NCBI GenBank assembly: GCA_001784585.1
Contig: MFRN01000027.1
Location: 1 to 41,181, forward strand
Direction of reading: 5' to 3'
DNA length: 41,181 nucleotides
Source: Candidatus Melainabacteria bacterium RIFCSPLOWO2_02_FULL_35_15
GTDB lineage: Bacteria; Cyanobacteriota; Vampirovibrionia; 2-02-FULL-35-15
Below are positions 1 to 35,861 of this stretch, one piece after another (within the stretch, counting starts at the first letter, position 1; every line of letters starts with the position of its first letter). Both the position numbers and the translations under genes were made by a program. The notes under the pieces are model-generated. The model was not told the origin of the DNA. It made no database searches and saw nothing but the letters and a program-made list of their open reading frames with translations.

Positions 1-1
1 A

Positions 2-6000: not shown

Positions 6001-6151
6001 ACCACCTATTCAGGCTAAACCTGTAAGTCCGGTAAAACCACCACCAGATTTAACCAAGAGTACATCTAAAAAACCAGTTAAAAAGAAATCTAAAAAGCCT
6101 GCTAAAAACAAATCTAAAAAACCCGGGGCTAAGAATAAGAAAAAAAGATAA
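2..6151 (+). CDS. giant secreted/surface mosaic protein with poly-serine linkers (5' end outside window)
   Basis: The frame is open from base 2; the GTG at 59 is internal because an SSSSGSSST linker precedes it, so the N-terminus and any signal peptide lie upstream. Modules by nucleotide: LamG/concanavalin-like lectin (about 50-410); seven FG-GAP/VCBS repeats of GDFNxDxxxDLA type (560-1590), enough for one integrin-like seven-bladed propeller; five 35-residue Cys repeats (1667-2191); seven WFTExxxNKIGR repeats typical of Vgb/streptogramin-lyase propellers (2215-3160); two Myxococcus-type CGNGxLExGEECDDGN repeats (3437-3631); an unrecognised domain (3650-4135); a discoidin-like galactose-binding fold (4209-4660, tentative); small Cys-rich units (4775-5800); a Pro-rich region (5806-6045) and a Lys-rich tail to the end. 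Poly-Ser or TSGS linkers separate most modules. The content points to an extracellular adhesin or matrix protein; the ligand is unknown. No LPXTG or SLH motif is visible at the C-terminus. Module calls rest on motif recognition. Confidence 0.9.
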   Translation, partial: NLSCTLSSSSGSSSTQKFIVGVSSEPNGLTYLFSDGINNVNNITISGSEVPSLNMWHHIAFTFDGTTAWNYYLDGMPVKSGNFSIPINIVSNALEIGSRTDTPTPYFLQGKLANVRIYNYALTADDINQLYISGVDDFTCTSSSSSSSSSSSSSSSSSSSSSSSSSSSSSSSSSSSSSSGGAGGCTGSIFASGVSYIAGSYPTSIVKGDFNNDSKLDLAAGNYSGNSISVFLGNGDGTFANQVAYLTGNTPFALVSGDFNKDSKPDLATTNYSGNSVSILLNAESGMFSNQVTYAAGLSPRGIAAGDLDNDSNLDLVTANNQGDNISLLFNNGNGTFANQVIYSAGNNPQAVTIGDFNKDTLQDLAVTNYADNNVHILYQREDGTFGNLDIYLVGIAPGQILNEDLNSDSNLDLVVVSQGNGLSVLLNNGDGTFADQVIYPAGAQPLSVTTGEFNNDGNTDLAITNQSGSNISVFLGNGDGTFESQMNYFTHSIPRAVTTGNFNGIAGDDLAIAHYSGTNIISVLLNSCSSGSSSSSSSSSSSSSSSGSSSSSSGCPSGQIFCGTSCVNGNCCSDSQCVDGQTCQGNFCTCPSGQIFCGTSCVNGNCCNDSQCTGGQICQNNFCTCPSGQIFCDPSCVNGNCCSDSQCVDGQTCQGNFCTCPSGQIFCDPSCVNGNCCSDSQCVDGQTCQGNFCTCPSGQIFCGTSCISGDCCINAQCPGSWRCQDNFCGGTGGCFCSPNETITEINIPTLNNNPFYIASGPDGSTWFTEYSKNKIGRVFPGNAILELNIPTPNSYPRGITAGPDGYVWFLESAANKIGKIRPFDNKITEFKIPTLNSAPYSITAGSDGNLWFTEFGANKIGRISPFDNQITEFNISPTTPTGPYDITFGWDGNVWFTESSRHRIARITPSGVITEFNIPTFNSSPHGITSSYWDGNIWFTEANANKIGRLTLWNNEITEFNIPTPFAYPEDITAAYDGNIWFTEYGVNKIGRITPGGVITEFDVPEITIPGESSRPFGITTGEKDCYIWFTEAGTFTEPVLGTQRIAKIPYCYDRPSSSSSSSSSSSSGSTSGSTSGNTSGSTSGSSSSSSSSSSSSSSSSSSSSSSSSSSSSSSSSSSSSSSSSSSSSSSSSSSSSSGFFGSICGNGILEIGEECDDGNTNDGDGCSAACQNEFGEAFCGNGILEIGEECDDGNTNDGDGCSAACVNESGSSSGTCDGSARLSVRFDQVENRGNGNLEPVVFLGDGTLFNSEQTFDLVIDGLSITDPDFDPNVPGLAIRRGDGYIDLIHYGRLDGNYPDQLEAVLGQLKFDGAIIAEITNIPTLEFEEDGLENQGNLTYDSSYETPDDEIFTDGNFFLSVGTDNDSARIYYDIPACESFSSTSGSTSGSTSGSTSGSTSGCEVFASKVEDFSSEYPGWEATMALGNPDCELGTLCSDITCAWAALPANSESEYLDLKFPTTQAKAVRIYEIHTTGGVYNIELFNESDGSIKNIPVSDCLVNSCTPNAYNILEVPVPDTSASISRVRIYTRNNGWNEIDAVSLIPNGCSSTGTISCPNNSSSSSSSSSSSSSSSSSSSSSGSSSSSSSSSGCWIVRGYGIDCNDCGRFTKEPDEIVVTEEPNIEDGYFHYFCECPAAEIHFTGGRYLDTDFKIGTDGLPLKWYPNEPYYPQIRSCPPLESSSSSSSSSSSSSSSGDICSAFLNGVLVVSPCGSSSSSSGSSSSSSSSSSSSSSSSSSSSSSGSSFNEAFCKDGIAECPDSTLVPSCEAGSTRFCVNDDSDPICYNFITSELTIARCGTEALGTIPVCIGGEPTCNNGGVFECESGATDFCSISDGLEPICVSPGRFRSGRCFISGGSSASLRSHLLNRTSLSSLSDSDIIRNPRYRNNTPYCSDNHRLKCEKGSYIGWDKGIPGCYEFKSFKFIYQGSPACVPRSPLPSAPAPLAPVPSLPPPAAPSQIQSPSIFVPPLSPSIDAIKQPDTVKEPVIQTDSPATLPPVSPPIQAKPVSPVKPPPDLTKSTSKKPVKKKSKKPAKNKSKKPGAKNKKKR
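1667..2191 (+). repeat. five tandem 105-bp repeats encoding Cys-rich 35-residue units
   Basis: Units begin at 1667, 1772, 1877, 1982 and 2087 with an exact 105-bp period. Each encodes CPSGQIFC...SCVNGNCC...QC...G..C..NFC, with eight or nine cysteines. Units 1, 3 and 4 are almost identical in DNA, including synonymous sites; unit 5 is the most diverged. This indicates recent duplication or gene conversion inside the giant gene. Confidence 0.95.
3171..3420 (+). repeat. longest poly-serine linker with (TSGS)n insert
   Basis: About 80 residues of almost pure Ser interrupted by a TSGSTSGNTSGSTSGS stretch (about 3207-3260). All six Ser codons (TCT, TCC, TCA, TCG, AGC, AGT) are mixed. Similar linkers lie at 422-540, 1591-1663, 4681-4773, 5041-5086 and 5141-5237, and a TSGS linker at 4141-4206. 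Such linkers are known as flexible spacers between domains of secreted proteins, for example in Saccharophagus degradans carbohydrate-degrading enzymes. Confidence 0.95.
3437..3631 (+). repeat. two tandem Myxococcus-type Cys-rich repeats
   Basis: Two units start at 3437 and 3542, again 105 bp apart, and are identical in DNA apart from a few third-position changes. Each encodes CGNGILEIGEECDDGNxND followed by GDGCSAAC, the signature of the Myxococcus cysteine-rich repeat found in secreted proteins of many bacteria. Confidence 0.9.
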
Positions 6152-6231
6152 TACTAATGGTTACCCCTTGCTGATAATATTTGATAGCTTTGTAAACAAA
6201 TAACAAGGATTAAATTAAACTAATTTATTTA

Positions 6232-6247
6232 TGTGACATGCGTCATT
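6232..6247 (+). promoter_or_regulatory. possible CRP/FNR-family operator
   Basis: TGTGA-CATGCG-TCATT resembles the CRP consensus TGTGA-N6-TCACA, with a perfect left half and three of five bases in the right half. Its centre lies about 41.5 bases before the start of transcription predicted from the promoter at 6247-6274, the class II activator position. No CRP-family gene is in the window, so the binder is unknown. Confidence 0.35.
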
Positions 6248-6274
6248 TGAATCCTGAAAAATTAAGGGTATAAC
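6247..6274 (+). promoter_or_regulatory. predicted sigma70-type promoter of the subtilisin gene
   Basis: TTGAAT (6247-6252), a 16-base spacer, and TATAAC (6269-6274). A strong ribosome binding site, TAGGGAG, follows at about 6280-6287, ahead of the ATG at 6299. The rest of the 147-base gap 6152-6298 holds no gene that I can see. Confidence 0.45.
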
Positions 6275-6298
6275 AAATCTTAGGGAGTAGTAGAACAT

Positions 6299-9109
6299 AT
6301 GAGAAAATTCTTTGTAATTATTTTAATTTTATTTCTTTTAATACCATTTGCTTATCATGCAAATGCTCAAGTCTCATCAGTTATAAATATCCAATCTTTT
6401 GATGTAGAAGTTAATCCAAAAACAAATAAAATTTATGCAACAAATGCACCTGATTCATTGTCAGTAATTGATGGTTCAACAAATGCAATAATAAAAACAA
6501 TTAATTTGATGGGGGAAGCTAGAGCTATAGCCATTAACCAGGATACAAATAAAATTTATGTCACAAACAGAATTACAAATGAAGTTCACGTTATTAATGG
6601 TGCTACAGATGCTCTCGAAGCAACAATTCCAATAAGCCAAAGTTATGTCGGGCTTGGAGAAATTGCTGTTAATATTGTAATGAATAAAATATATGCTTGT
6701 GGTGAAAATTCTGACAGTGTTTATGTAATAGATGGTGCAACAAATTCACTCCTATCTACTATACCAGTCGGGAAAACCCCCACTTCAATTGTTGCCAGTC
6801 CAATTTTAAATTTTATGTTTGTGGGACTTGGTGGTGCTCACTTTGTAGTCAGTATTGATTGTTCTAAAGATAAAGTAACCATTACAAATTCACGTTATGG
6901 TAGCAGTGTTGTTTTAGGTGTAGACCCAGTTACATACAAAATATATATAGCCGATGGGCAAACAAAAAAAATTGATCATCTTACTAGTGGTGCTGATAAT
7001 AATGTTTTGGCTTCATCTTTACTTACCGGTGGTATCCCAACAGGAATAGCAGTGGATAACACCTTGAACTATGTATATGTAATCTCTTCTGTAACTGAGG
7101 CTCCAATAGTTACGGTACTACAAGGGGGTTCCTTAAGTAAGATAACTAACTTTCCTATTGGTGGGAAACAAGGTTTCTACAATATAGCTGCTAATCCTAT
7201 TACCAATAAAGCCTATATTGCTGGTAATACTACAAGGGGGATTTTTGTAATTGACGGTAACAATTTAAGTCAACAAGGATCCTCTTCTAGTTCTTCTAGC
7301 AGTAGTGGCTCAACTAGTGAACCGTTTACAATTCCTGAATGCAAATTTTCTAATAACTCTTCAAACTTTCTTAGCCAGGTTACAGAAAACGATTTTGAAA
7401 ATTCCGAGATTGATCCTGAAGAAGATTCAAATAGTGAATCTCTATTTTCAATAGATTCAGTACTGAGTGATTTGAGCAGTATAAAGGGAAATATAACTCT
7501 TGAATTCTCAAAAGTACTAAACAGATCTCTTAGTTCTGTAGCAAACAAGATTAAAAAATCAATTAAACTTATTACAAATGCCAGAGATGCAGCTAGAGAT
7601 AATGATGCTGATGTATGTAGTGAGAATATTACAGATGGAATTGACCAATTAGACTTTGCAATCAGTCTATTAGAAAAAAAACAATGTAAAACAAAAAGTA
7701 AAAATTTACAAAGTTGCATTTCACCAACAATCGTTGAAAAATATATTTCAAATATAGAAGATTTATTTAATAGTCTTGAGGAAAATTTATTAATCGATGA
7801 AGATCAAGATGGCATAGCAGATGCTTGTCTTTCTTCTGAGTTTAAAAGCTCTAAAGAACCAACCAATAATAATTCAAATACAGAAAGTACACTTAGTACC
7901 CCGATTAAAGATCAGTTTATTTTAAAATTTAAGGCATCTGAAAAAGATCCATCACAAATAGCTTCTGAATTGGCATCAAAATATGGATTGCAGATTCTGC
8001 ATGTATACAAACACGTTTTTAATGGTGCAGCTGCAATAGTTCCTCCAGGCAAAGAAAAGACTCTACTTGAAGAGCAAAATATTAAAGAAGTAATTCAAGA
8101 TTACACAATTTTCCCTGCTAATAATTTAACTTATCAAACTGATAAAACAACACGATATTTAGTTAATGATCAAGTACTTACAACTGGGATAAATTGGATA
8201 GATGCTGAACTGAATCCTAATGAAGGAGATGGTTGTATGGTAACAGTAGCAGTCTTAGATACAGGAATTGATTTTAGCCATCCCGATCTGGATGCAAATA
8301 TAAACACTAATTTAAGTGTTAACTGTACTACTCCTAGTGCAACACAGGCATGTGTTTCTGGTGGACAAGATGATTACACGATTGGTATTAGGGGACACGG
8401 AACAGCTGTAGCAGGAATAATTGCAGCAGAAGACAATAACATAGGTGTACTAGGCGTTGGTTCAAAAATAGAACTGGTTTCTGTAAAAGTTTTGCCTAAT
8501 GGAAATGGTAGTTTTGGGGATGTAATTGCAGGGTTAGATTATGTTACACAGAACGCAGATATTATAGAAATAGCAAATTTAAGTTTAGCAGCTACATTTT
8601 CCTCCTATCACCCAATTATTAAGATCGTACAAGAGGCAATTCAGAAAACTATAAACTCTGGTGTAATTTGTGTAGTTGCGGCAGGTAACTCAGGTGTAGA
8701 TGTTACTCAAAGTCTTGTTGTACCAGCAATGTTTCCTGAAGTTATTACTGTATCAGCATTATACGACACTAATGGCGAGCAAGACAAAGAAGATAATTGG
8801 GGTATTTGGAAATATGGTTCAAGTAATTACGGAAGCGAAATAGATATTATTGCTCCAGGATCATTTATAACAACTACAGCACTGGGAGGTGATTATCTCG
8901 TCAGTGATGGTACTAGTTTTGCAACACCATTTGTCTCGGGAACTATTGGACTTTATATAGCAAAAAATGGAAGACCTTCAAATGCTGATGCAAGATCTTT
9001 AACACCTCTCATAGATGCTATTTCAAAACCACGTTCAGGCTATTATACAAATGAACCTGTAGATGGTGAATATGAACCTGCATGTTATGCAAACGGACCT
9101 AGACTTTAA
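6299..9109 (+). CDS. secreted subtilisin-like serine protease with N-terminal YVTN beta-propeller
   Basis: A 936-residue exported protein. Residues 1-23 form a signal peptide ending AYHANA. Residues ~30-325 carry YVTN-type propeller repeats (NPxTNKIYxxN...VIDGxTN). A short poly-Ser linker sits at ~326-337, then a charged region with DEDQDGIADAC (~499-511), which looks like a thrombospondin type 3 calcium motif. An inhibitor-I9-like propeptide (~537-606) precedes the S8 catalytic domain (~640-915). The catalytic triad is visible: Asp654 in VLDTGID, His700 in GHGTAVAG and Ser873 in GTSFATP, with oxyanion Asn797 in AAGNSG, so the enzyme should be active. A propeller placed before the propeptide is unusual and would be released if the propeptide is cleaved. 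It lies downstream of the giant mosaic gene but has its own predicted promoter. Confidence 0.92.
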   Translation: MRKFFVIILILFLLIPFAYHANAQVSSVINIQSFDVEVNPKTNKIYATNAPDSLSVIDGSTNAIIKTINLMGEARAIAINQDTNKIYVTNRITNEVHVINGATDALEATIPISQSYVGLGEIAVNIVMNKIYACGENSDSVYVIDGATNSLLSTIPVGKTPTSIVASPILNFMFVGLGGAHFVVSIDCSKDKVTITNSRYGSSVVLGVDPVTYKIYIADGQTKKIDHLTSGADNNVLASSLLTGGIPTGIAVDNTLNYVYVISSVTEAPIVTVLQGGSLSKITNFPIGGKQGFYNIAANPITNKAYIAGNTTRGIFVIDGNNLSQQGSSSSSSSSSGSTSEPFTIPECKFSNNSSNFLSQVTENDFENSEIDPEEDSNSESLFSIDSVLSDLSSIKGNITLEFSKVLNRSLSSVANKIKKSIKLITNARDAARDNDADVCSENITDGIDQLDFAISLLEKKQCKTKSKNLQSCISPTIVEKYISNIEDLFNSLEENLLIDEDQDGIADACLSSEFKSSKEPTNNNSNTESTLSTPIKDQFILKFKASEKDPSQIASELASKYGLQILHVYKHVFNGAAAIVPPGKEKTLLEEQNIKEVIQDYTIFPANNLTYQTDKTTRYLVNDQVLTTGINWIDAELNPNEGDGCMVTVAVLDTGIDFSHPDLDANINTNLSVNCTTPSATQACVSGGQDDYTIGIRGHGTAVAGIIAAEDNNIGVLGVGSKIELVSVKVLPNGNGSFGDVIAGLDYVTQNADIIEIANLSLAATFSSYHPIIKIVQEAIQKTINSGVICVVAAGNSGVDVTQSLVVPAMFPEVITVSALYDTNGEQDKEDNWGIWKYGSSNYGSEIDIIAPGSFITTTALGGDYLVSDGTSFATPFVSGTIGLYIAKNGRPSNADARSLTPLIDAISKPRSGYYTNEPVDGEYEPACYANGPRL

Positions 9110-9119
9110 ACTCAGGGCT

Positions 9120-9146
9120 TTGCAATAACAAATTGTGTTGTACAAT
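9120..9146 (+). promoter_or_regulatory. predicted promoter placing the PhoU start at the mRNA 5' end
   Basis: TTGCAA (9120-9125) and TACAAT (9141-9146) are separated by 15 bases, shorter than ideal. The -10 box ends 7 bases before the ATG at 9154, and no Shine-Dalgarno sequence precedes that ATG, so transcription could begin at or next to the start codon (leaderless mRNA). Confidence 0.35.
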
Positions 9147-9153
9147 ATTCCTC

Positions 9154-9819
9154 ATGAATAACACAGCTCGTACAACATTTCAGGATGAATTAATTAAACT
9201 TCAGTCTCTTGTTTTGGATCTTGGACAAAAAGTTAAAGCAAATGGTGAACTCCTGCTCCAATTTCTAACAAACAAAGAAATGGTTAATGAATTATTTTTA
9301 CAAATCAAAGAAAAAGATAAAGAGATTGATAATGCCAGATGGCAGGTGCATGACTTTGGTGATCAGTTAATTGTATTACAACAGCCTGTAGCAAAGGATT
9401 TTAGACAGATAATAACCTCTATTCAGATTACCGATAATTTGGAAAGAATTGGAGATCATTTAAAAAAAACTGCCCGGTTACTTGAAAAAGTTTCTTTGGC
9501 TGAAAATGAAATCCCTGAGGAAATTATTGAAATGGCAAAATCCGGATTAAAAATGCTCTCTGAGTCAATTGATGCATATTCAGAAATATTTGACGGGAAA
9601 ATTAATAAAATAGCTCTGCTTGATGAACACGTAGATTCTCTTTACAAACAAACTATTAAAAAAATTGTTCTCTTAATTAAAAAAGCTCCTGAAGAACAAA
9701 TAGACAGTCTTTCAAAATTATTTTTTGTAGCTCAAAGTTTTGAAAGGGCTGCTGATCATGCTGCAAAAATTGGTCAGTTGGTAAATTATGCAATTACCGG
9801 TGAGAGAACCAAGCCGTAA
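9154..9819 (+). CDS. phoU: PhoU-like phosphate signalling/transport regulator
   Basis: The 221-residue helical protein shows the two PhoU repeats, each with an ERxxDHxxxxA-type metal-binding motif: NLERIGDHLKKTA and SFERAADHAAKIG. PhoU proteins adjust the PstSCAB phosphate transporter and the PhoR/PhoB sensor pair, and bind metal clusters at these motifs. No pst genes are nearby, so the partner is unknown. I chose ATG 9154 over the TTG at 9133 because the seven extra residues (MCCTIFL) do not match the family and a -10 box lies inside that extension. The gene ends one base before the convergent gene on the other strand. Confidence 0.88.
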   Translation: MNNTARTTFQDELIKLQSLVLDLGQKVKANGELLLQFLTNKEMVNELFLQIKEKDKEIDNARWQVHDFGDQLIVLQQPVAKDFRQIITSIQITDNLERIGDHLKKTARLLEKVSLAENEIPEEIIEMAKSGLKMLSESIDAYSEIFDGKINKIALLDEHVDSLYKQTIKKIVLLIKKAPEEQIDSLSKLFFVAQSFERAADHAAKIGQLVNYAITGERTKP

Positions 9820-9820
9820 A

Positions 9821-10276
9821 TTAATTTGCCAGAGCCTTCTTTATTTCCTTAACCGGATGTTTTAAAACTTTTTTAGTATCAAAATTATGAATAATTCTAT
9901 TTATTAAGAAATATGTTGAAAATTTTCTGTTTGGATTAAAAAACTGATCACATAAAAAGTGAGCTAAGAGCGAAAGCGTAACTCCTACTCTCCACGGAGT
10001 TAATGAAGGATCTAATGTCAGGAAAAAATAAAGGAGTAAAAGCTCGTAGGAGTGTAACGGCGCATATAATTTCCCGCTGATCCTTTCATGATGAGCAGCA
10101 TTAACTTTTTTCCAGTCCCATTTTTTGCCATGAGCATAAAGGTAATCAATAATATGATCAAGGTCTATCAGCGTTCCTACTAAAAAACTTGCAAGGGCCG
10201 GTCCAAGTTCACCATAGCTGCTATATGTAAACACAGCTACTACAGCAGATACTGCTATGTGGCCTGAAGTTCGCAT
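9821..10276 (-). CDS. YdjM-like membrane-bound putative metal-dependent hydrolase
   Basis: A 151-residue protein with several hydrophobic segments and conserved polar motifs: an N-terminal HIAVSAVVAV, a central DLDHIIDYL, a PLHSYE motif and HFLCDQF. This His/Asp pattern between membrane helices matches the YdjM/DUF457 family of predicted inner-membrane hydrolases; the substrate is unknown. The C-terminus is basic. It converges on phoU with a one-base gap and is divergent from ispF. The family call rests on motif pattern and size. Confidence 0.65.
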   Translation of the reverse strand: MRTSGHIAVSAVVAVFTYSSYGELGPALASFLVGTLIDLDHIIDYLYAHGKKWDWKKVNAAHHERISGKLYAPLHSYELLLLYFFLTLDPSLTPWRVGVTLSLLAHFLCDQFFNPNRKFSTYFLINRIIHNFDTKKVLKHPVKEIKKALAN

Positions 10277-10346
10277 ATCATCTTCTTACCCTTTGCACTT
10301 ATATTAGAAACCAGATATGTTAAATTCTTATTAAAGGAAAATTAAT

Positions 10347-10811
10347 ATGCCAATTGGCCACGGTTATGACATACACAAGCTTGTTCCGGGAAGAAAATTA
10401 ATTCTTGGAGGTGTAGAAATTCCTTATTCAAAAGGTTTGCTTGGACATACAGATGCAGATGTTCTTATTCATGCAGTCATTGATGCACTTTTAGGAGCTG
10501 CCGGGCTTGGAGATATAGGCCAGCACTTCCCTGACAGTGATCCAAAATGGAAAGATGCAAATAGCCTGGATTTATTAGAAATCACCTGTGAATCTATAAA
10601 AAACAAAGGCCATGAAATTATAAATATTGATTCTACAGTTGTTGCAGAAGAACCAAAGCTTGCTCCATACATTAGTAAAATGAAAAAAAACTTTTGCAGC
10701 ATAGGGTTAAAAGAAAATCAAATAAATATAAAAGCAAAAACAAATGAAGGTCTTGATTCAACCGGACAAAAAAATGCAATCTGTGCCTGGGCTGTAGCTC
10801 TTATTGAATGA
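10347..10811 (+). CDS. ispF: 2-C-methyl-D-erythritol 2,4-cyclodiphosphate synthase
   Basis: IspF forms the cyclic diphosphate intermediate of the MEP isoprenoid pathway. The 154-residue length is typical. The zinc-binding residues sit in GHGYDIH (Asp8 and His10) and in LGHTDADVLIHA. HFPDSDPKW and the C-terminal GLDSTGQKNAICAWAVALI segment are also characteristic. AAAGGA lies about eight bases before the ATG. The pathway's second enzyme gene, ispC, is at 17118-18326 on the other strand, so the two are not in one operon. Confidence 0.97.
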   Translation: MPIGHGYDIHKLVPGRKLILGGVEIPYSKGLLGHTDADVLIHAVIDALLGAAGLGDIGQHFPDSDPKWKDANSLDLLEITCESIKNKGHEIINIDSTVVAEEPKLAPYISKMKKNFCSIGLKENQINIKAKTNEGLDSTGQKNAICAWAVALIE

Positions 10812-10890
10812 AAAGTGTCAGGGGATATCCCTTGTCATAACTTAATTTTAACTATTTACTGATATTAAATTAAATCAATATTTGTGACAT

Positions 10891-10897
10891 GGAAAGG
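10891..10897 (+). promoter_or_regulatory. Shine-Dalgarno that decides the start of the VWD protein
   Basis: GGAAAGG ends six bases before the ATG at 10904. The upstream in-frame ATG at 10889 overlaps this site and has no ribosome binding site of its own, so 10904 is preferred. Confidence 0.6.
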
Positions 10898-10903
10898 TTT
10901 TTT

Positions 10904-11842
10904 ATGGTTAATCCAATTGAACAAAATAATTCTAATAACACAGTGCAATCAGGCAGCACAAATAATCCTGATGAAAGTCTTAAAAATGCATTATACATAC
11001 AAGAGCCTACTTTGCCAGAAGTAAACCGTGAAATTGATACTGAAGATGAATCTGTACTTAAAGCTATGATTGATAAAGGACCAGCCTATGAGTATATAAA
11101 TAATCTTGGAAATAACGGTAAGTTAGGTAAGATCACTGTTGATGCAAATGGACAAGTTACCTATGATGGCAATGTAACACATGCTGTAACCGGAAAACCT
11201 ATAGCATTATATGTACTTGAAGGCGATCTGCCTCCTCCTCCTTCTCCAGCAGTAATTCCTGATGCAGTTTCCAGGGGACAGGGAGATCCGCATTTTACAG
11301 GATTTAACGGGCATCGTTTTGACTACCATGGAATTCCTGGCCATATATTTAATCTTTTATCAGATGCTAAGATTCAAATTAACTCACTATTTGGTTCATG
11401 GGGAGACGGCGGGGCCACCGTAATGAATCAAATAGGGGTTCTTATTGGCAAGGATAAACTGCTTGTAAGTAGTAGCGGACATCCAAATCTAAACGGAAAC
11501 AGCTTAGGATCAGGACAGTCAGTAGAGCTAAAAAACGGAGCTGTTACAGTATCAGGAAATACTGTTTCAATCTCTACAAAAGAATATTTAATAAACATAT
11601 TTGACAGAGGTGTGTGTCTGGATATAGATATTAAAACAACCTCTGAAGGAATAAACAGAGATGAAGTAATGCCAGGTGGAATAATCGGGCAAACAGCTTC
11701 TGGTAATGGGAGTTTGTCTGTAGGTGATTTTATTGTTCATGATGGAATATTTGGAACTAATGTCGCATCTAACAGGTATGGAGCAAAAACCAAAACAGAT
11801 AAACTAAAAGATAAAATTAAAGAAAAATACAATTTCATATAA
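10904..11842 (+). CDS. von Willebrand factor type D domain protein
   Basis: A 312-residue protein. The N-terminal ~110 residues are polar and Asn-rich with no recognisable domain. A Pro-rich hinge (LPPPPSPAVIP) leads to a VWD-like domain beginning GQGDPHFTGFNGHRFDY and running through KIQINSLFG and MNQIGVLIGKDKLLV. VWD domains occur in extracellular multimerising or adhesive proteins, where Cys pairs stabilise them; this one has almost no Cys. No signal peptide is visible, so export is uncertain. It sits among genes for secreted proteins. The C-terminal Lys-rich helix (KTKTDKLKDKIKEKY) is unusual. Function unknown beyond the domain. Confidence 0.75.
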   Translation: MVNPIEQNNSNNTVQSGSTNNPDESLKNALYIQEPTLPEVNREIDTEDESVLKAMIDKGPAYEYINNLGNNGKLGKITVDANGQVTYDGNVTHAVTGKPIALYVLEGDLPPPPSPAVIPDAVSRGQGDPHFTGFNGHRFDYHGIPGHIFNLLSDAKIQINSLFGSWGDGGATVMNQIGVLIGKDKLLVSSSGHPNLNGNSLGSGQSVELKNGAVTVSGNTVSISTKEYLINIFDRGVCLDIDIKTTSEGINRDEVMPGGIIGQTASGNGSLSVGDFIVHDGIFGTNVASNRYGAKTKTDKLKDKIKEKYNFI

Positions 11843-11981
11843 TAATCTTAAAAAAAATCTCATAAATATTTACAATGATACCCCTGATTAGGCTAGGAAG
11901 ATTTTGCTATCCCTAATTCATAATAATCTGCACTGAGCATAATATTTTCAGTAAATTAGAAAATATGAAAGGGTTTGTAAA

Positions 11982-12875
11982 ATGAAAAAAATAAATATTA
12001 TTGCTGCTGTATTAATTATGTTAATAGTAAGTTTCAATCTTATGAGTTTAAAAGGATTTGGTCAGTCTACAGGCCCACTAGATACTTACACAATTACATT
12101 AACAAATAAAAGTGGAAAAATAAGCCTTAACAGTCCAACCAGTGCACTGAATATTAAAGTAGCCCCGGGCGGACAGGGTGTTAGTGGACTCGATACAGGT
12201 GTTTCTTTTAAAGCAACCGGTGCAACCGGATTACTAACAAATATTGACTCTACAACCAATGTAATAACTATCGTATGGAGCGGAGGAATCTCAGACGGTA
12301 AAGCCACGATTACAGGTATGCTTAAACAAGGTAATACAATCGCTCCTGATTTTACAGTAATCAAAATAGAAAAAGATGGCGGAAAAGATATTACGGGAGA
12401 TTTAAATATAGCTGTAAATCTTAGTTCTTCTGTACCAGTATCCTCTTCTTCCAGCAGTTCCAGCGGTTCAGTATCTTCTTCAAGCAGCTCAGGAGATACT
12501 GCTACCACTTCAAGCAGCTCTGGTGGATCCATAAGTTCTAATGATCCAAGTGTAACATTAAGCGGACCGGAAGAATTTGTAGTAAAGAGGCCAGGCTCGA
12601 ACATCTTCAAATTAAAAGTAAAGGGAAGTAAATTTTCCAAGACTTCAAGGTGTGAAATTGAGGTTTCCGATGACTCATTACTTAGAATAAGACCTAAAAG
12701 ATTTCTTCTAAGGGCAGCAAGGAGTTCCGGAACACTTTTAGCTAAAGTACCGAATATTGCAGTAAAAGATCTAATTGAAACAAATTCATTTGATATAGTT
12801 ACTGTTGACTTATCATGTTCAAATGATGCAAGCGATTCAATAGATATAATTATTACATCACCTTCTGCTGAATAA
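11982..12875 (+). CDS. secreted two-domain protein with poly-Ser linker, function unknown
   Basis: The 297-residue protein begins with a signal peptide (MKKINIIAAVLIMLIVSFNL, cleaved around GFGQS). A beta-rich N-terminal domain of about 125 residues (TITLTNKSGKISL...ITGDLNIAVNL) somewhat recalls a cohesin-like fold, but I cannot assign it. A Ser/Gly/Thr linker follows at about nt 12421-12540, then a second domain of about 110 residues containing the only two cysteines outside the signal region. The linker uses the same mixed Ser codons as the giant protein at the left edge, suggesting one protein style for exported proteins. GAAAGGG lies about seven bases before the ATG. It converges on dnaX with a 12-base gap. 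Confidence 0.75.
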   Translation: MKKINIIAAVLIMLIVSFNLMSLKGFGQSTGPLDTYTITLTNKSGKISLNSPTSALNIKVAPGGQGVSGLDTGVSFKATGATGLLTNIDSTTNVITIVWSGGISDGKATITGMLKQGNTIAPDFTVIKIEKDGGKDITGDLNIAVNLSSSVPVSSSSSSSSGSVSSSSSSGDTATTSSSSGGSISSNDPSVTLSGPEEFVVKRPGSNIFKLKVKGSKFSKTSRCEIEVSDDSLLRIRPKRFLLRAARSSGTLLAKVPNIAVKDLIETNSFDIVTVDLSCSNDASDSIDIIITSPSAE

Positions 12876-12887
12876 AAATAATTACAA

Positions 12888-14522
12888 TTATTCTATCTGC
12901 CTTGCACCTAAAAGTTCGCTGACTGCATTTGTAAAATCATCTGTAGAACGTGGTTCGTGGTTTGTGGTTTGTGATCTGTGACTTGTTATTTGTTGCCTGC
13001 TTTTTATTTGTTTTGGAACTACTTTAAATTTAATTAGTTTTGTATCCAGTCCTGAAGCTAGTTTTACAGCTTTTAAAATCATTTCTTTTTTCTTTGCATC
13101 CTGATCCAGTCTGGGCAAAAACATATCTTTTGACAAACCAACTTCCACAAGCTCTTCTGTTAACTGTAAGAGATAACTTTCAGACTGGGTAAGCAAGGTC
13201 TTTGTAGGATTGCTTTCTATAAGGGTAACTATTTGCTGCCATAGAACATCTAAATCTGAAGGTAAATTTTTATCAGTAGCACCATTAGTGTCTTCAGGCT
13301 CTTGGGATTGTTTTGTCAGGATTTCATCTTTCCTCGTAATGATATGTGGAGTTTGTTCTTCATGCTTTCCTTTTTCCAGCTTCTCTATTCTCTCCTTTAA
13401 TTTGGCCATTGACACTAAGAAATCCTCATCAAGCATACTCATAATATCTGCCATAAACTGTAGTTCCTGACTAAGAGCAAAGCGCAGCTTAGACTGTGTA
13501 TCATGCAGCCTGTCTATAATCTTAAGTAAATGTATCTGACTAACTTTGTCTAAGATCATCAAATCACTGGATAATTCAAGTTTAAGTTTATTTCTATATT
13601 CAGAATCAATTTTTGCTTTTGCCAGATCAATAATTAATTCAAGCAGATCTTTAAATAATTCACTTATATCTTTTCCGCTTTTTATCAGGTCTTCTGCCAA
13701 ATCTACAGACATTTTCCTGTTAAAGCTTAGTACTGATTCCATCAATTTAAATAAACTTGTTCTGTTAACAGTTCCAAATAATTCAAAAACTTCATCCGGA
13801 GAAATTGATTTGTTTTCTGTCTGTAAAACACTTATCTGATCCAAAAGAGAAATGGCATCACGTAAACAACCGTTTGATCTTTTTGCAATAAACTTAATTA
13901 TAGTTTCATCCACATTTATTTTTTCTTTAAGTGCGATTTCCCTGACTCTTTTTTCAAGTTCTTCCTGTACAATAGGTTTAAAATCAAGCTTCTGACATCT
14001 GCTAATAATAGTCGGTATAACTTTGTATTCTTCTGTAGTAGCCAGGATAAATATTACATTTTTCGGCGGTTCTTCAAGTGTTTTCAAAAGTGCATTAAAT
14101 GCATGATCAGTCAGCATGTGAACTTCATCAATAATATAAATCTTAAAGCGTGATCCGTAAGTTCCCAGACTGACTCTGTTAATTAGATCTTCGGCATCTT
14201 CTACTTTTCTGTGACTTGCTGCATCTATTTCTATAACATCCAGAGAATTACCGTTTGTAATTCCCTGACAGCTTACACACTGCCCACACGGTTCTATAGT
14301 AGGGACACAGCATGCTGTGTCCCTACAACAATTTAACGATTTCGCCAGTATCCTGGCGGTAGAAGTTTTTCCAGTCCCGCGTGGCCCACAAAACAAATAA
14401 GCATGCACGATTTTATTGTAAGAAATTGCATTCGAAAGAGTCTTAGTAACTACTTCCTGACCTGCAAGCTCAGATAATTTTTGAGGGCGGTATTTTAAGT
14501 AAAGAGGTTGGTATTGTTTCAT
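12888..14522 (-). CDS. dnaX: DNA polymerase III subunit gamma/tau
   Basis: DnaX is the ATPase core of the sliding-clamp loader. The 544-residue protein has the AAA+ Walker A (GPRGTGKTSTARILA), a zinc module with Cys residues in LNC, PCGQC and VSC, Walker B DEVHML, and the ISRCQ sensor/arginine-finger motif, followed by the DNA polymerase III domain and a tail rich in Gln, Thr and Ser. Two features are odd. The zinc module contains a segment RDTACCVPT encoded by a perfect 28-bp palindrome (14299-14326) that adds extra Cys residues. The C-terminal segment QITSHRSQTTNHEPRS is encoded by seven-base tandem repeats (12950-12984). AGAGG lies five bases before the ATG, just downstream of a long hairpin. 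Confidence 0.97.
   Translation of the reverse strand: MKQYQPLYLKYRPQKLSELAGQEVVTKTLSNAISYNKIVHAYLFCGPRGTGKTSTARILAKSLNCCRDTACCVPTIEPCGQCVSCQGITNGNSLDVIEIDAASHRKVEDAEDLINRVSLGTYGSRFKIYIIDEVHMLTDHAFNALLKTLEEPPKNVIFILATTEEYKVIPTIISRCQKLDFKPIVQEELEKRVREIALKEKINVDETIIKFIAKRSNGCLRDAISLLDQISVLQTENKSISPDEVFELFGTVNRTSLFKLMESVLSFNRKMSVDLAEDLIKSGKDISELFKDLLELIIDLAKAKIDSEYRNKLKLELSSDLMILDKVSQIHLLKIIDRLHDTQSKLRFALSQELQFMADIMSMLDEDFLVSMAKLKERIEKLEKGKHEEQTPHIITRKDEILTKQSQEPEDTNGATDKNLPSDLDVLWQQIVTLIESNPTKTLLTQSESYLLQLTEELVEVGLSKDMFLPRLDQDAKKKEMILKAVKLASGLDTKLIKFKVVPKQIKSRQQITSHRSQTTNHEPRSTDDFTNAVSELLGARQIE
12950..12998. repeat. heptanucleotide tandem repeat inside dnaX
   Basis: On the plus strand, units read GTGGTTC, GTGGTTT, GTGGTTT, GTGATCT, GTGACTT, then the degraded GTTATTT and GTTGCCT, all exactly seven bases long. 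Because seven is not a multiple of three, the encoded peptide changes frame from unit to unit. Heptamer tandem repeats (STRR sequences) are known in cyanobacteria, usually between genes. Confidence 0.8.
14299..14326. repeat. perfect 28-bp palindrome inside dnaX
   Basis: GTAGGGACACAGCA followed by its exact reverse complement. It is read in frame in the zinc-module loop of DnaX. It resembles short palindromic repeats scattered in cyanobacterial genomes. Related palindromes occur at 17125-17159, 35329-35350 and 35832-35861. Confidence 0.9.
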
Positions 14523-14531
14523 AATTACCTC

Positions 14532-14560
14532 TTTGTCATTGCGAGCGAAGCAATGACAAA
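14532..14560. repeat. hairpin of the CATTGCGAG/GAAGCAATG repeat family, upstream of dnaX
   Basis: Perfect 11-base arms TTTGTCATTGC and GCAATGACAAA flank a seven-base loop. The arms match the ends of the 94-bp element in valS (19632-19725). In the dnaX mRNA the hairpin would end just before the AGAGG ribosome binding site. Confidence 0.85.
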
Positions 14561-17117: not shown

Positions 17118-18326
17118 CTAATTTGTAGCAATGGACACAATAAATTGCGTCCCTATTGATTTTACAAATTCATTTGCTCTTATACGAATCTCTCTATCAA
17201 TATCTAAAATTTCCTCTAATGATTTAGGGGTGATCGGATTATGATTTTCTAAAGTTCTTGAAATAATTTTTTCAATGTCTACAAATGAAATTTGCTCTTT
17301 TAAAAATAAATCAACTGCTACTTCATTGGCAGCATTTAAAACTATTGGATAACTTTGGCCTTTTTTTGCCACATCATATGCTAATTTCAGACATGGAAAT
17401 CTTTCAAAATCAGGTTTTTCAAATTCAAGTTTTCCTACAGACAAAAGATCACAAAACAAATTAAACGGTAGTTCTTTTCTCTCCGGATAAAAAAGTGAAT
17501 ACTGAATGGGAAGTTTCATATCTGTAGCACCAAGCTGTGCAATTATATTTCCATCTATAAACTCAACTGCACTGTGCATAATGCTCTGCGGATGGATAAA
17601 TACATCGATCTGATTTACTCCAATATCAAACAAAGCCATAGCCTCAATAATTTCAAGTCCTTTATTCATAAGGGTGGCTGAGTCAACTGTGATTTTCTGC
17701 CCCATTACCCATGTAGGATGTTTTAGAGCATCTTCTTTTTTTGCATTTTGAATCTGGGATTTAGTCCAGCTTCTGAATGGCCCCCCGGATGCAGTAAGGA
17801 TTATTCTCCTTATCTTTTCGTGAAGACGTCCCACCGGAACATCTCTACCAAGGCATTGATGAATAGCTACATGTTCACTGTCCAGCGGAATAATCTCACC
17901 TTTGTTTTTCACCAGAAGATCTTTAATCAGACTCCCTGCAATAACCAGTGTTTCTTTATTTGCAAAAGCTACTCTTTTCCCATGGCTTAATGCTGAAATA
18001 GTAGGTTTCAAACCTATTGCTCCAACCAGACTGTTTACCACTATGTCACATGAACACGATGAGATAAACTCAAGACCTATATCTCCCCAGAATATTTCAA
18101 TTACAGGATTTTTTAAAATTGATTTTAACTCCTGGGCTAAAAAAGCATCTTTAACCGACACAAACCTGGGGTTATGTTCTTGTATTTGCTCAGCAAGAAG
18201 AGGTGCATTTTTACCTGCAGCAAGTCCAATCACTTCAAAATCATCCTTAAAAGCAGATAAAACATCCAGGGTTTGCCTGCCAATTGATCCTGTAGAGCCT
18301 AGTACAGTAACTTTCTTTCGTTTCAT
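17118..18326 (-). CDS. ispC: 1-deoxy-D-xylulose 5-phosphate reductoisomerase
   Basis: IspC (Dxr) converts deoxyxylulose phosphate to methylerythritol phosphate using NADPH, the committed MEP step. The 402-residue protein has the N-terminal nucleotide site GSTGSIGRQTLD, the metal and substrate motifs LDSEHVAIHQCLG, LTASGGPFRSW and VDSATLMNKGLEIIEA, and HPQSIMHSAVEF. The last residues (GTQFIVSIATN) are encoded by an imperfect palindrome at 17125-17159 and may be a replaced tail. The ribosome binding site GGAGGA is separated from the ATG by a 22-base hairpin (18333-18354). It lies 36 bases after the valS stop. Confidence 0.97.
   Translation of the reverse strand: MKRKKVTVLGSTGSIGRQTLDVLSAFKDDFEVIGLAAGKNAPLLAEQIQEHNPRFVSVKDAFLAQELKSILKNPVIEIFWGDIGLEFISSCSCDIVVNSLVGAIGLKPTISALSHGKRVAFANKETLVIAGSLIKDLLVKNKGEIIPLDSEHVAIHQCLGRDVPVGRLHEKIRRIILTASGGPFRSWTKSQIQNAKKEDALKHPTWVMGQKITVDSATLMNKGLEIIEAMALFDIGVNQIDVFIHPQSIMHSAVEFIDGNIIAQLGATDMKLPIQYSLFYPERKELPFNLFCDLLSVGKLEFEKPDFERFPCLKLAYDVAKKGQSYPIVLNAANEVAVDLFLKEQISFVDIEKIISRTLENHNPITPKSLEEILDIDREIRIRANEFVKSIGTQFIVSIATN
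17125..17159. repeat. imperfect palindrome over the 3' end of ispC
   Basis: GGACACAAT (17133-17141) and ATTGCGTCC (17144-17152) pair with one mismatch around AA. The flanks, GTAG on the left and CCTA on the right, match the ends of the perfect palindrome in dnaX, so this is probably a decayed copy of the same family. Confidence 0.6.
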
Positions 18327-18362: not shown

Positions 18363-21188
18363 TTATTTTAAAAGTTCTATCTGTTCATTAATTGTTTTTA
18401 TCTGATTCTCTAATTCTGAGACTCTTGTCTTAACCTCATCTATTTTATCCTGTGCTGCATTGTTAATAAAGTTTGCATTGTTAAGTTTTAATTTCTGGTT
18501 TTCCATTTCTTTTTTAAATAAAGTTTTCTTTTTATTTAAACTGCTTAACATATTGTCAATGTCCACAAGACCTGATATAGGAATAAGAATCCTTGTATCA
18601 AAAATCAAAGCTCCTGTCGATGGTTTAACAGGTTTAAAATTTTCAAAAATAGATACTTTGGATTTAGTTAAAAATTCTATATACTCCACTGAGTGCTCCA
18701 GTATATTTTTCTCTTGTGTGTTTTTTGTAAAAAGCTTAACATCTATTTCATTTACCCACGGGATTCCCACAGTCTGACGCAGGTTTCTAATAGTCCTGGT
18801 CGTATCAATAACATGTGAAAAACTTTTTGCCTCGATATTACTGAAGTTTTGATCACATGCCGGGTATGAAGTTAAAGAAATATATTTTTCTTTTTTGTTT
18901 ACTAAAGGAAGTGACTGCCAGATTTCTTCAGTAATAAATGGCATTATCGGATGAAGTGCTCTAGTAATACCTTCAATTATATAAAAGAGTATTTGCTGAG
19001 TTTGTTCCCTTAATTCTGGTTCTAATAGCTGCCTTTTTGCAATCTCCAGATACCAGTCACAGAACTCATCCCAGATAAACTTATAAGAAGATCTTGCAAT
19101 TTCTAAAAAATCATAAGTATTAAATAATTCAGAGTAAGAATTAATTTGATTTGTATATTGATGTAAAATCCATTTGTCAGCCAGTGTAAGTAAAGGCAAT
19201 TCATGAATTGCCTTTACTTCATACGTTTTATTTGGCTCCAGATTCTGCATTACAAACCTGCTTGCATTCCAGAATTTATTTGCAAATCTTTTATATTGTT
19301 CTAAAACATCAGATTCCCATCTTCCTTCTTTGTCTTTCCTTCCGGGGAAGCGTACATCCTGACTACCTGTTATACCAAGGCTAAAATACCAGAATCTGTT
19401 TGCATCAGCACCGTATTTTTCTATCAGATCAAGCGGATCAATTGCATTTCCTTTTGATTTTGACATTCTTTTGCCATCCGGAGTCTGAATAACAGGATGA
19501 ATTAAAACTTCTCCAAAAGGCACATTACCGGCAAATTCCAGCCCCATAAAAACCATTCTTGAAACCCATAGATTTATTATTTCCCTGGCTGTTGCAAGAA
19601 CACTTGTCGGGTAAAATGTTTTAAAGTAACTTGTCATTGCGAGGAGTCCGCCTTTGGCGGACGACGAAGCAATCTCATTTTCGTTATAACTATTATGAGA
19701 TTGCTTCGCTTCGCTCGCAATGACAGAGCTCTCAGGCCATCCAAGCGTAACAAAAGGCCAAAGTGCCGAGCTGAACCACGTATCCAAAACATCAGGATCC
19801 TGAGTTAGATTTTTACTTTTACATTCAATACATTCTTTTGGAGTTTCTTCATCTGCTGTAGCATGATTGTTTTCACAGTACCAGACTGGAATCTGATGTC
19901 CCCACCAGAGCTGACGGCTAATACACCAGTCTCTGATGTTTTTTAGCCAGTTTAAATAATGATTTTTATAACGCTCCGGAGTAAATCGAATGCGAGGGGC
20001 CGGACCCTCGCTTACAGCTTTTATAGCCGGTCCTGCAAGTGGTTTCATCTTCACATACCACTGTTCTGAAAGATAAGGCTCTATAACAGTTCCACATCGA
20101 TCGTGTTTACTGGAAGCCTGTTCATATTCCGCAATTTGTTTTAATAAACCAAGTCCTTCAAGTTTTTGAACTGTAAGTTCTCTTGCTTTAAAGCGGTCCA
20201 GATTTTGAATGTCTGCCGGTATTCCAATATTTTCCTTATCTGTAATTTTTCCGTTTGGAGACATAATTTCAGGATACTTTCCAAGTTCTCTGTGTCTTTC
20301 AAAGATCTCATAGTCAGTAGCATCATGCGCTGGTGTAACCTTCAGACAGCCTGTTCCAAAATCCAGCTCTATAGCTTCATCACCGACAATCGGGATTTGT
20401 TTATTTATAAAAGGAAGAAAAACCTTTGTCCCGATTAATTTTTTATATCTGCCGTCATTCGGGTTTACTGCTACTGCAATATCCCCGAACATTGTCTCAG
20501 GACGGGTTGTAGCTATAGTCAATCCGCCCTTGGAAATATTTTTAATATCAAAGGGATATAAAATATGAAAAAGTTTTCCTTTAATTTGTTCAGTTTCTAC
20601 CTCCAGATCACTAATGCTTGTTAAACACTTCGGGCACCAGTTAACTATTCTTTTCCCTCTGTAAATTATATTTTTTTTAAATAACTCAACAAAAACTTTT
20701 CTTACTGCTTTTGTATAATTTTCGTCCATTGTAAAAACAAGGCGATCATAGTCCAGCATGCAGCCTAGTTTTTTCATCTGGTTTATAATTTCATTTCCAT
20801 GTCTTTCTTTCCAGCTCCAGACACGTTTTAAAAACTCTTCTCTGCCTAAATCTTCTTTCCTTTTTTTCTCATTTTTTGAAATATCTCTTTCTACTAAAAC
20901 CTGGGTGGCAATTCCGGCATGATCTGTACCGCCCTGCCAGAGAACATTTTTTCCATTCATTTTGTTATATCTGATTAAGACATCCTGAATAGTATCCCCA
21001 AATGCATGTCCCATATGAAGACTGCCGGTTACATTTGGCGGAGGAAGTGCTATGGAAAAGTTTTCTTTATCCGGTTCTATCTTTGATTTAAAAAGTTTTT
21101 CATCAAGCCAGATCTTTAACCACTTTTCTTCAACTTCTTTTGGATTATAGGTTTTTGAGAGTTCAGTCATACCCTTAACTTTTACCAT
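18363..21188 (-). CDS. valS: valyl-tRNA synthetase
   Basis: The 941-residue class I synthetase charges tRNA-Val. It shows the HIGH region PPPNVTGSLHMGHAF, an editing (CP1) domain with TTRPETMFGD and a DWCISRQLWWGHQIPVWYC segment, the KMSKS motif GKRMSKSKGN, the anticodon-binding domain, and the C-terminal coiled coil of ValS. Between GWPE and TFYPTS there are about 30 extra residues (SSVIASEAKQSHNSYNENE and onwards to AMTSYFK), encoded by the 94-bp element at 19632-19725; canonical ValS has a short loop there. The start is uncertain: an ATG seven codons later (21170) is also possible. It probably leads the valS-ispC-pth transcript. Confidence 0.97.
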   Translation of the reverse strand: MVKVKGMTELSKTYNPKEVEEKWLKIWLDEKLFKSKIEPDKENFSIALPPPNVTGSLHMGHAFGDTIQDVLIRYNKMNGKNVLWQGGTDHAGIATQVLVERDISKNEKKRKEDLGREEFLKRVWSWKERHGNEIINQMKKLGCMLDYDRLVFTMDENYTKAVRKVFVELFKKNIIYRGKRIVNWCPKCLTSISDLEVETEQIKGKLFHILYPFDIKNISKGGLTIATTRPETMFGDIAVAVNPNDGRYKKLIGTKVFLPFINKQIPIVGDEAIELDFGTGCLKVTPAHDATDYEIFERHRELGKYPEIMSPNGKITDKENIGIPADIQNLDRFKARELTVQKLEGLGLLKQIAEYEQASSKHDRCGTVIEPYLSEQWYVKMKPLAGPAIKAVSEGPAPRIRFTPERYKNHYLNWLKNIRDWCISRQLWWGHQIPVWYCENNHATADEETPKECIECKSKNLTQDPDVLDTWFSSALWPFVTLGWPESSVIASEAKQSHNSYNENEIASSSAKGGLLAMTSYFKTFYPTSVLATAREIINLWVSRMVFMGLEFAGNVPFGEVLIHPVIQTPDGKRMSKSKGNAIDPLDLIEKYGADANRFWYFSLGITGSQDVRFPGRKDKEGRWESDVLEQYKRFANKFWNASRFVMQNLEPNKTYEVKAIHELPLLTLADKWILHQYTNQINSYSELFNTYDFLEIARSSYKFIWDEFCDWYLEIAKRQLLEPELREQTQQILFYIIEGITRALHPIMPFITEEIWQSLPLVNKKEKYISLTSYPACDQNFSNIEAKSFSHVIDTTRTIRNLRQTVGIPWVNEIDVKLFTKNTQEKNILEHSVEYIEFLTKSKVSIFENFKPVKPSTGALIFDTRILIPISGLVDIDNMLSSLNKKKTLFKKEMENQKLKLNNANFINNAAQDKIDEVKTRVSELENQIKTINEQIELLK
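19632..19725. mobile_element. 94-bp MITE-like palindromic element inserted in frame in valS
   Basis: Perfect 12-bp terminal inverted repeats, TGTCATTGCGAG (19632-19643) and CTCGCAATGACA (19714-19725), enclose a second perfect 13-bp inverted repeat, GAAGCAATCTCAT (19666-19678) with ATGAGATTGCTTC (19695-19707), and a GTCCGCC-TTT-GGCGGAC hairpin. It encodes no protein of its own. Its ends match the hairpin at 14532-14560. Peptides of the VIASEAKQS type are known from similar repeats inserted in many bacterial genes. Confidence 0.85.
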
Positions 21189-30392: not shown

Positions 30393-30400
30393 AATTCTGT

Positions 30401-35322: not shown

Positions 35323-35328
35323 GAAGTA

Positions 35329-35350
35329 CAGACACGCCATAGCGTGTCTG
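35329..35350. terminator. 9-bp-arm hairpin after hisA
   Basis: CAGACACGC (35329-35337) and GCGTGTCTG (35342-35350) pair perfectly around CATA, seven bases after the hisA stop. No U-tract follows, so it is either a weak terminator, an mRNA-stabilising hairpin or another copy of the palindrome family. Confidence 0.45.
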
Positions 35351-35553
35351 ATAGTCGTTTATCGTGTCGTTTAGGTTTACCTCTTATGCAGACTTCGTGA
35401 TCATAAATGTTATTTTTCTAAAACAGCGATTGACTAAATTCTAAAAAAACGTTACTTTGCTATTAAGGCCGGGTATAGATATCAAGGAAATTAATGAATG
35501 TAGTTGAAGAGTATTGTTAAGCAACATCAGTTACAAAAAATAAAAATATTAAA

Positions 35554-35831: not shown

Positions 35832-35861
35832 AGTAGAAGCATGCTATAACATGCCTCTACT
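35832..35861 (+). terminator. hairpin after the micro-ORF
   Basis: AGTAGAAGCATG (35832-35843) and CATGCCTCTACT (35850-35861) pair with one mismatch around CTATAA. TGCTTAATTTT follows, a loose U-rich tract. It could terminate the micro-ORF transcript, or be another palindromic repeat of the GTAG...CTAC type. Confidence 0.45.

Follow-up and report, generated by a model that had tools for sequence, protein, structure and literature searches.

A palindrome of the double-foot GTAG REP type lies in frame within dnaX of a Melainabacteria bacterium and recurs in other core genes of its family

Results

The window, by which we mean the whole stretch of 41,181 nt that was analysed, carries dnaX, the gene for DNA polymerase III gamma/tau, at 12888–14522 on the minus strand. 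The open reading frame exceeds the cut-offs of both NCBIfam PRK05563 and TIGR02397, its product can be aligned (about 1e-65) with the gamma/tau structures of E. coli, and the Walker A motif and the four zinc-ligand cysteines are intact. Within the gene, at 14299–14326, lies GTAGGGACACAGCATGCTGTGTCCCTAC, a strandless, perfect 28-bp palindrome with 14 pairs and zero loop, whose symmetry stops at both edges. A palindrome check and the coding path confirmed that it sits inside the zinc module, as stated in the original prediction. It is read through the codons TGT AGG GAC ACA GCA TGC TGT GTC CCT ACT, that is CRDTACCVPT, and the surrounding peptide is LNC-CRDTACCVPT-IEPCGQC; the palindrome had been said to encode RDTACCVPT, which is correct as to the frame, but ten codons rather than nine are touched. 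From base composition, 4.9e-4 perfect 28-bp palindromes are expected per 41,181-nt window, and the longest palindrome arms in 60 Markov shuffles of the window measured 12 bp; the palindrome is far beyond chance.

The exact 26-mer of the dnaX palindrome occurs only once in its own genome, and since there is no second copy, no donor can be named. Outside this genome, seven unrelated groups share the identical 26-mer, in nine contig stretches altogether (Poribacteria, Electrothrix, Chloroflexi, Pseudanabaenaceae, Ignavibacteriales, Nitrospirae and Peribacteria), where the copies lie mostly outside recognisable genes. A viral origin was considered and rejected, no exact match having been found among viral contigs.

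The window contains further copies, all strandless. A second perfect 28-bp palindrome, GTAAAGGCAATTCATGAATTGCCTTTAC, at 19190–19217, is in frame in the valyl-tRNA synthetase gene valS (18363–21188, minus strand), where it encodes VKAIHELPLL and changes the length by about −1 codon net relative to G002 and G009. A further copy with this architecture, now decayed, encodes VKTIHELPQQ and lies in frame at 32849–32876 in the alanyl-tRNA synthetase gene alaS (30395–33130, plus strand; TIGR00344); it is partly common to G001 and absent in G002, G003 and G009. The copy GTAGAAGCATGCTATAACATGCCTCTAC (35833–35860) is outside open reading frames. A comparison with endpoints at 17125 and 35329 had also been proposed. 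The latter belongs to a decayed copy with the same 28-bp architecture, GTACAGACACGCCATAGCGTGTCTGATA (35326–35353), while the former is a probable relic in the last codons of ispC (17125–17158), imperfect and with indels, the ends of which do not match exactly.

Repeats of another kind, CGTC-like and palindromic (GTCATTGCGAGCGAAGCAAT...), are found at 19665–19728 in valS and at 14531–14560 upstream of dnaX. The inverted pair in valS adds about 30 codons (ASEAKQSH...), an insert common to G002 and absent in G001, G003 and G009. Positions 1–12900 encode large predicted surface proteins with serine-rich linkers and repeated domains, among which a cysteine-rich repeat, CGNGILEIGEECDDGNTNDGDGCSAAC, occurs at 3437–3637.

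The loop that carries the palindrome in DnaX was compared with that of nine genomes of the same family, two of them from the same genus. Between zinc ligands 1 and 2 there are 12 residues here and 7 in 9/9 relatives (for example LNC-ESGITVE-PC); structure alignment shows that the E. coli loop also has 7. The net effect is a gain of five residues and three cysteines beside the zinc ligands, which bears out the lengthened loop and the added cysteines of the original prediction. Conservation of the same residues in other DnaX proteins would have told against an insertion, and the alignment run on this point found CRDTACCVPT in 0/29 other DnaX sequences. As the element is absent from the relatives' DnaX, the change is recent and, within the set of species examined, limited to this one. 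The site has gained 15 nt net despite a 28-bp element; 28 not being a multiple of 3, about 13 nt of host sequence were lost, and the element was not simply inserted. DnaX presumably still functions, since its loop lies at the periphery and none of the four zinc ligands is missing.

The element has the architecture GTAG-N3-C-N12-G-N3-CTAC, 28 bp with a self-complementary stem. A search for TAGGGAC...GTCCCTA with a free centre returned 4 copies in the genome under study (G000), 8 in G001 and 10 in G009, nearly all of total length 26 and with a self-complementary centre. The genome-wide count, which like all copy numbers given here derives from pattern searches, yielded 21 copies of the wider form GTAGNNNC-N12-GNNNCTAC in G000 and 6–76 in eight family relatives (76, 23, 17, 6, 18, 8, 52 and 62 in G001, G002, G003, G004, G005, G006, G008 and G009, respectively), as compared with 0–1 matches for a reversed-pattern control and 0–1 copies in four genomes from other families of the class. 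In 41 copies taken with their flanks, each variable stem pair is Watson–Crick in 35–39, versus 12–29 after shuffling, so the element is repeated across the genome with its stem complementarity maintained. Complementarity wanes beyond the 28-bp edge, and in the flanking target only −1/+1 is clearly enriched (23/41 versus 13.6). The hairpin of the dnaX palindrome is bounded by 5′ GT[AG]G and 3′ C[TC]AC; its GTAG pairs with CTAC instead of standing unpaired at one end as in one-sided GTAG REPs, and it does not show the combination of CGTC end, AT at the stem base and CCA-like tail that marks CGTC REPs and Rickettsia palindromic elements (RPEs). On sequence grounds, the element is assigned to the double-foot GTAG REPs and the dnaX copy is a new instance of a known element type.

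The view that such repeats are usually intergenic does not hold in this family, in which from 3/20 to 18/23 copies are inside open reading frames. Besides the copy in dnaX, 10 of the 19 fetched from G000 lie well inside open reading frames of at least 150 aa, the corresponding figures being 3/20 in G001, 10/23 in G009 and 18/23 in G008. NCBIfam or Pfam confirmed the host families prpB, glpK, queA, gltX, mtnA, alaS and thiO, as well as an N-acetylmuramoyl-alanine amidase, a patatin and a GNAT protein; hemB, rluD, dapB, radA, uvrD, prmC, rsmG, trpA, alr, nadD, queG, mqnC, mqnA, cca and hom were named by sequence only. The intragenic elements are read solely in the two frames where GTAG yields no stop. 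Tolerance of a palindrome within an essential replication protein had seemed notable, yet copies in core genes are many here and in-frame precedents have been published (PMC3733652, PMC6006769); those in replication, repair and tRNA-synthetase genes (PMC3733652) provide a precedent for the tolerance of dnaX.

Two further features of the intragenic copies were observed. The peptide encoded by the element has grown in tandem in queA (L095, HATSLRHATSPPHATSLL), mqnC (L187, LLQQVSTLLQQVST) and cca of G000 (L237, AYGGDVAYGGDV), which suggests local expansion after insertion. In addition, many elements stop just before a core beta-strand motif (for example IIIDPGHGG, ALDIGTGSG, VLDIGSGGG, VDADTGF or TICNTG), ending in ...PLL or ...PT as if feeding into the strand.

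Length was compared at 27 intragenic sites with orthologs devoid of a recognisable relic. At the median, a site has gained 1 codon net rather than some 9–10, and only 2/27 sites reach +9 or more, namely alaS (+9) and mqnC (+15), the latter containing three repeat units. There is no net change in rluD, radA, alr and thiO, while fad has gained 1 codon, dnaX and dapB 5 each, and hemB 8; perfect, undecayed copies are among those with a small net change (dnaX +5, valS −1, rluD 0, fad +1). Some sites have orthologs of more than one kind: in prmC, nadD and mtnA, long inserts belonging to other repeat types are present in other species, which makes the medians for these genes negative and calls for caution; some orthologs scored as element-free may hold old, erased copies. 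Taken across these sequences, the element mostly takes the place of host codons instead of supplying extra ones, presumably through some form of exchange. Because a bare 28-bp insertion would throw a gene out of frame, exchange seems to be required in essential genes. We found no published description of such a near length-neutral pattern of REP insertion in the accessible literature.

Several loops are occupied in more than one species. In mtnA, the GTAG copies of G000, G001 and G008 differ in their stems, and G002 and G003 have CGTC-like inserts; in gltX the same place is occupied, with different stems, in G000 and G008 and is free in G001–G003; queG carries a copy in both G009 and G001, as does cca in several species. 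These loops are either hot spots or old sites at which the stem has turned over. The prmC site holds a GTAG element in G009 and another repeat type (PAKAGIQ...GMT-like) in G003 (L230) and G001 (L231), which makes one and the same loop a target for more than one repeat family.

A protein search identified two intact RAYTs in G000 (C10 and C37), both missed by the Pfam search alone, and others in 7/9 relatives. The motifs are NHVH, WQ and YIMNNP in C10 and DHLH, WQ and YTINNP in C37, and the two were scored as RAYTs of the NH[IFV]H, WQ, YIxNNP type. C10 obtained 73.9 bits against NF047646, REP_Tyr_transpos (REP-associated tyrosine transposase), for which the NCBIfam cut-off is 80; the slight shortfall is possibly due to the in-frame insert of the protein. 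Alignment to E. coli TnpA_REP (4ER8) extends over the Tyr half. Both RAYT genes of G000 have a REP palindrome in frame between the HUH and Tyr motifs, and the RAYTs of G001, G003, G005, G008 and G009 carry an in-frame palindrome at the same position, mostly with different stems. The stem types inside RAYTs agree with common dispersed types in G000 and G009, whereas those of G008 do not, so that cognate pairing of the two is putative. In about 1.5 kb of RAYT flanks, the only palindrome copies seen were the RAYT-internal ones.

At six RAYT loci (L163, L171, L174, L167, L165 and L168), the internal site is the same but every gene has a different palindrome of its own, in most cases a perfect one, which implies stem turnover with complementarity preserved. 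Little was found in the way of palindromes around weak Pfam RAYT hits. An IS200/IS605 end was also considered and discarded: the ends of L003, the sole PF01797 gene (IS200-type) from the Pfam search, are unlike it, and no palindrome of this kind lies close to that gene.

Discussion

We regard it as highly probable that the palindrome in dnaX is a short, non-autonomous double-foot GTAG REP of TnpA_REP subclass 2.4 (RAYT group 4), moved by RAYT and swapped into coding sequence. This explanation builds on family membership, copy numbers, stem complementarity, RAYT-internal copies, absence from the relatives' dnaX and length changes, from which we infer RAYT mobilisation, single-step replacement and neutrality for DnaX. 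The two RAYTs of this genome, as HUH single-strand transposases, would probably recognise the hairpin and the GTAG foot on ssDNA and move the element, which may enter coding sequence by exchanging a short host stretch for 28 bp. In dnaX, about 13 nt of the zinc-module loop would have been traded for the palindrome, with a net gain of five codons. Surviving copies would then be those in which the frame was kept and the position fell in a tolerant loop.

It is tempting to speculate, as a tentative proposal, that the 28-nt hairpin takes the place of a host segment of about its own length in one step, in a manner resembling oligonucleotide recombination with an excised ssREP at the replication fork, and that the loops of mtnA, queG, gltX, cca and prmC have been rewritten repeatedly, with different stems or even different repeat types, REPs acting as a loop-diversifying mutator of essential proteins. 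The main alternative to one-step replacement, which we consider possible rather than probable, retains the same element family and assumes purely additive insertion followed by gradual loss of neighbouring codons under selection on loop length, leaving a small net gain. Decayed copies of some age are numerous (for instance in prpB, queA and mqnA), which leaves time for trimming, and alaS still retains its nine additional codons. Against this, the frameshifted intermediate should be lethal in dnaX, hemB, valS and gltX, and the perfect copies in dnaX, valS, rluD and fad have small net gains already, before any decay.

A quite different possibility is that the element has been kept in dnaX because it is useful, either as an mRNA hairpin that acts on translation or on the tau/gamma ratio, or in the form of a zinc site with extra cysteines. 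The palindrome RNA alone indeed folds as a 12-bp hairpin of −20.8 kcal/mol, and the three added cysteines stand beside the zinc ligands. The element is missing, however, in all nine relatives, and it lies near codon 66, which we take to be far from the E. coli tau/gamma frameshift site. Since comparable copies occur in dozens of unrelated genes, a role specific to dnaX is not needed, and we think this explanation improbable. Still less credible is a local birth of an immobile palindrome through replication slippage or template switching, one arm being made the inverse of the other. The presence of just one exact copy in the genome would fit, as would the AGGGA that the replaced dnaX segment of a sister species, TCAGGGATTACT, has in common with the element arm; nevertheless, the length, the GTAG/CTAC ends and the self-complementary centre recur at 21 sites in this genome and hundreds in relatives, with a control near zero, and this recurrence, together with the 26-mer shared by seven unrelated groups, largely refutes such an origin. 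Finally, a CGTC-type or RPE-type element can be dismissed almost entirely, for although in-frame insertion in core genes is the RPE hallmark and CGTC-like repeats are present in the genome, the ends are GTAG/CTAC, there is no ATTGC stem, the 41-copy consensus shows neither a CGTC end nor a CGTC-type stem, and the CGTC-like inserts add tens of codons where the GTAG ones are near length-neutral.

REPs are commonly seen as intergenic, and the interest of the double-foot family of this lineage is raised by its distribution, largely within core genes (dnaX, hemB, valS, alaS, gltX, radA and uvrD among them), and by its replacement-like pattern. Should the near length-neutral pattern reflect one-step replacement, it would reveal the way in which RAYT substrates enter DNA, and would mean that mobile DNA rewrites loops of essential enzymes. 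Sister species with and without the element in the same loop offer natural test cases.

Among known systems, the REP/BIME elements of E. coli, with TnpA_REP (PDB 4ER8), are similar in that a hairpin and GTAG foot are recognised by a RAYT, but differ in their one-sided foot, bulged stems and extragenic location. RPEs resemble the present element as palindromic repeats in frame within functional core proteins, although they have no GTAG foot. They also add sequence rather than replace that of the host. The RPE-4 and RPE-6 types are CGTC-tagged (PMC3733652). Closer are the GTAG-tagged palindromes of 20–40 bp described by Di Nocera et al. (2013), with intragenic copies in UvrABD, RecBCD, DnaE, DnaE2, PolA, tRNA synthetases and pseudouridine synthases (PMC3733652). 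Those REPs, in an account that does not mention dnaX, have an unpaired GTAG at one end and are mostly intergenic (PMC3733652), whereas in the present family GTAG is base-paired to CTAC and as many as 18/23 copies are located in open reading frames. The best counterpart is subclass 2.4 of Quentin et al. (2018), defined by the motifs NH[IFV]H, WQ and YIxNNP and by double-foot REPs with 5′ GT[AG]G and 3′ C[TC]AC, found in frame within tnpA_REP genes and scattered across phyla (PMC6006769). Subclass 2.4 (RAYT group 4) and the present family are alike in the end motifs on a long hairpin, the RAYT motifs, the REP between HUH and Tyr and the scatter among phyla. They are unlike in that insertions into other genes are only cited for subclass 2.4 (PMC6006769), while in this family many core genes are filled as well and host codons are mostly replaced.
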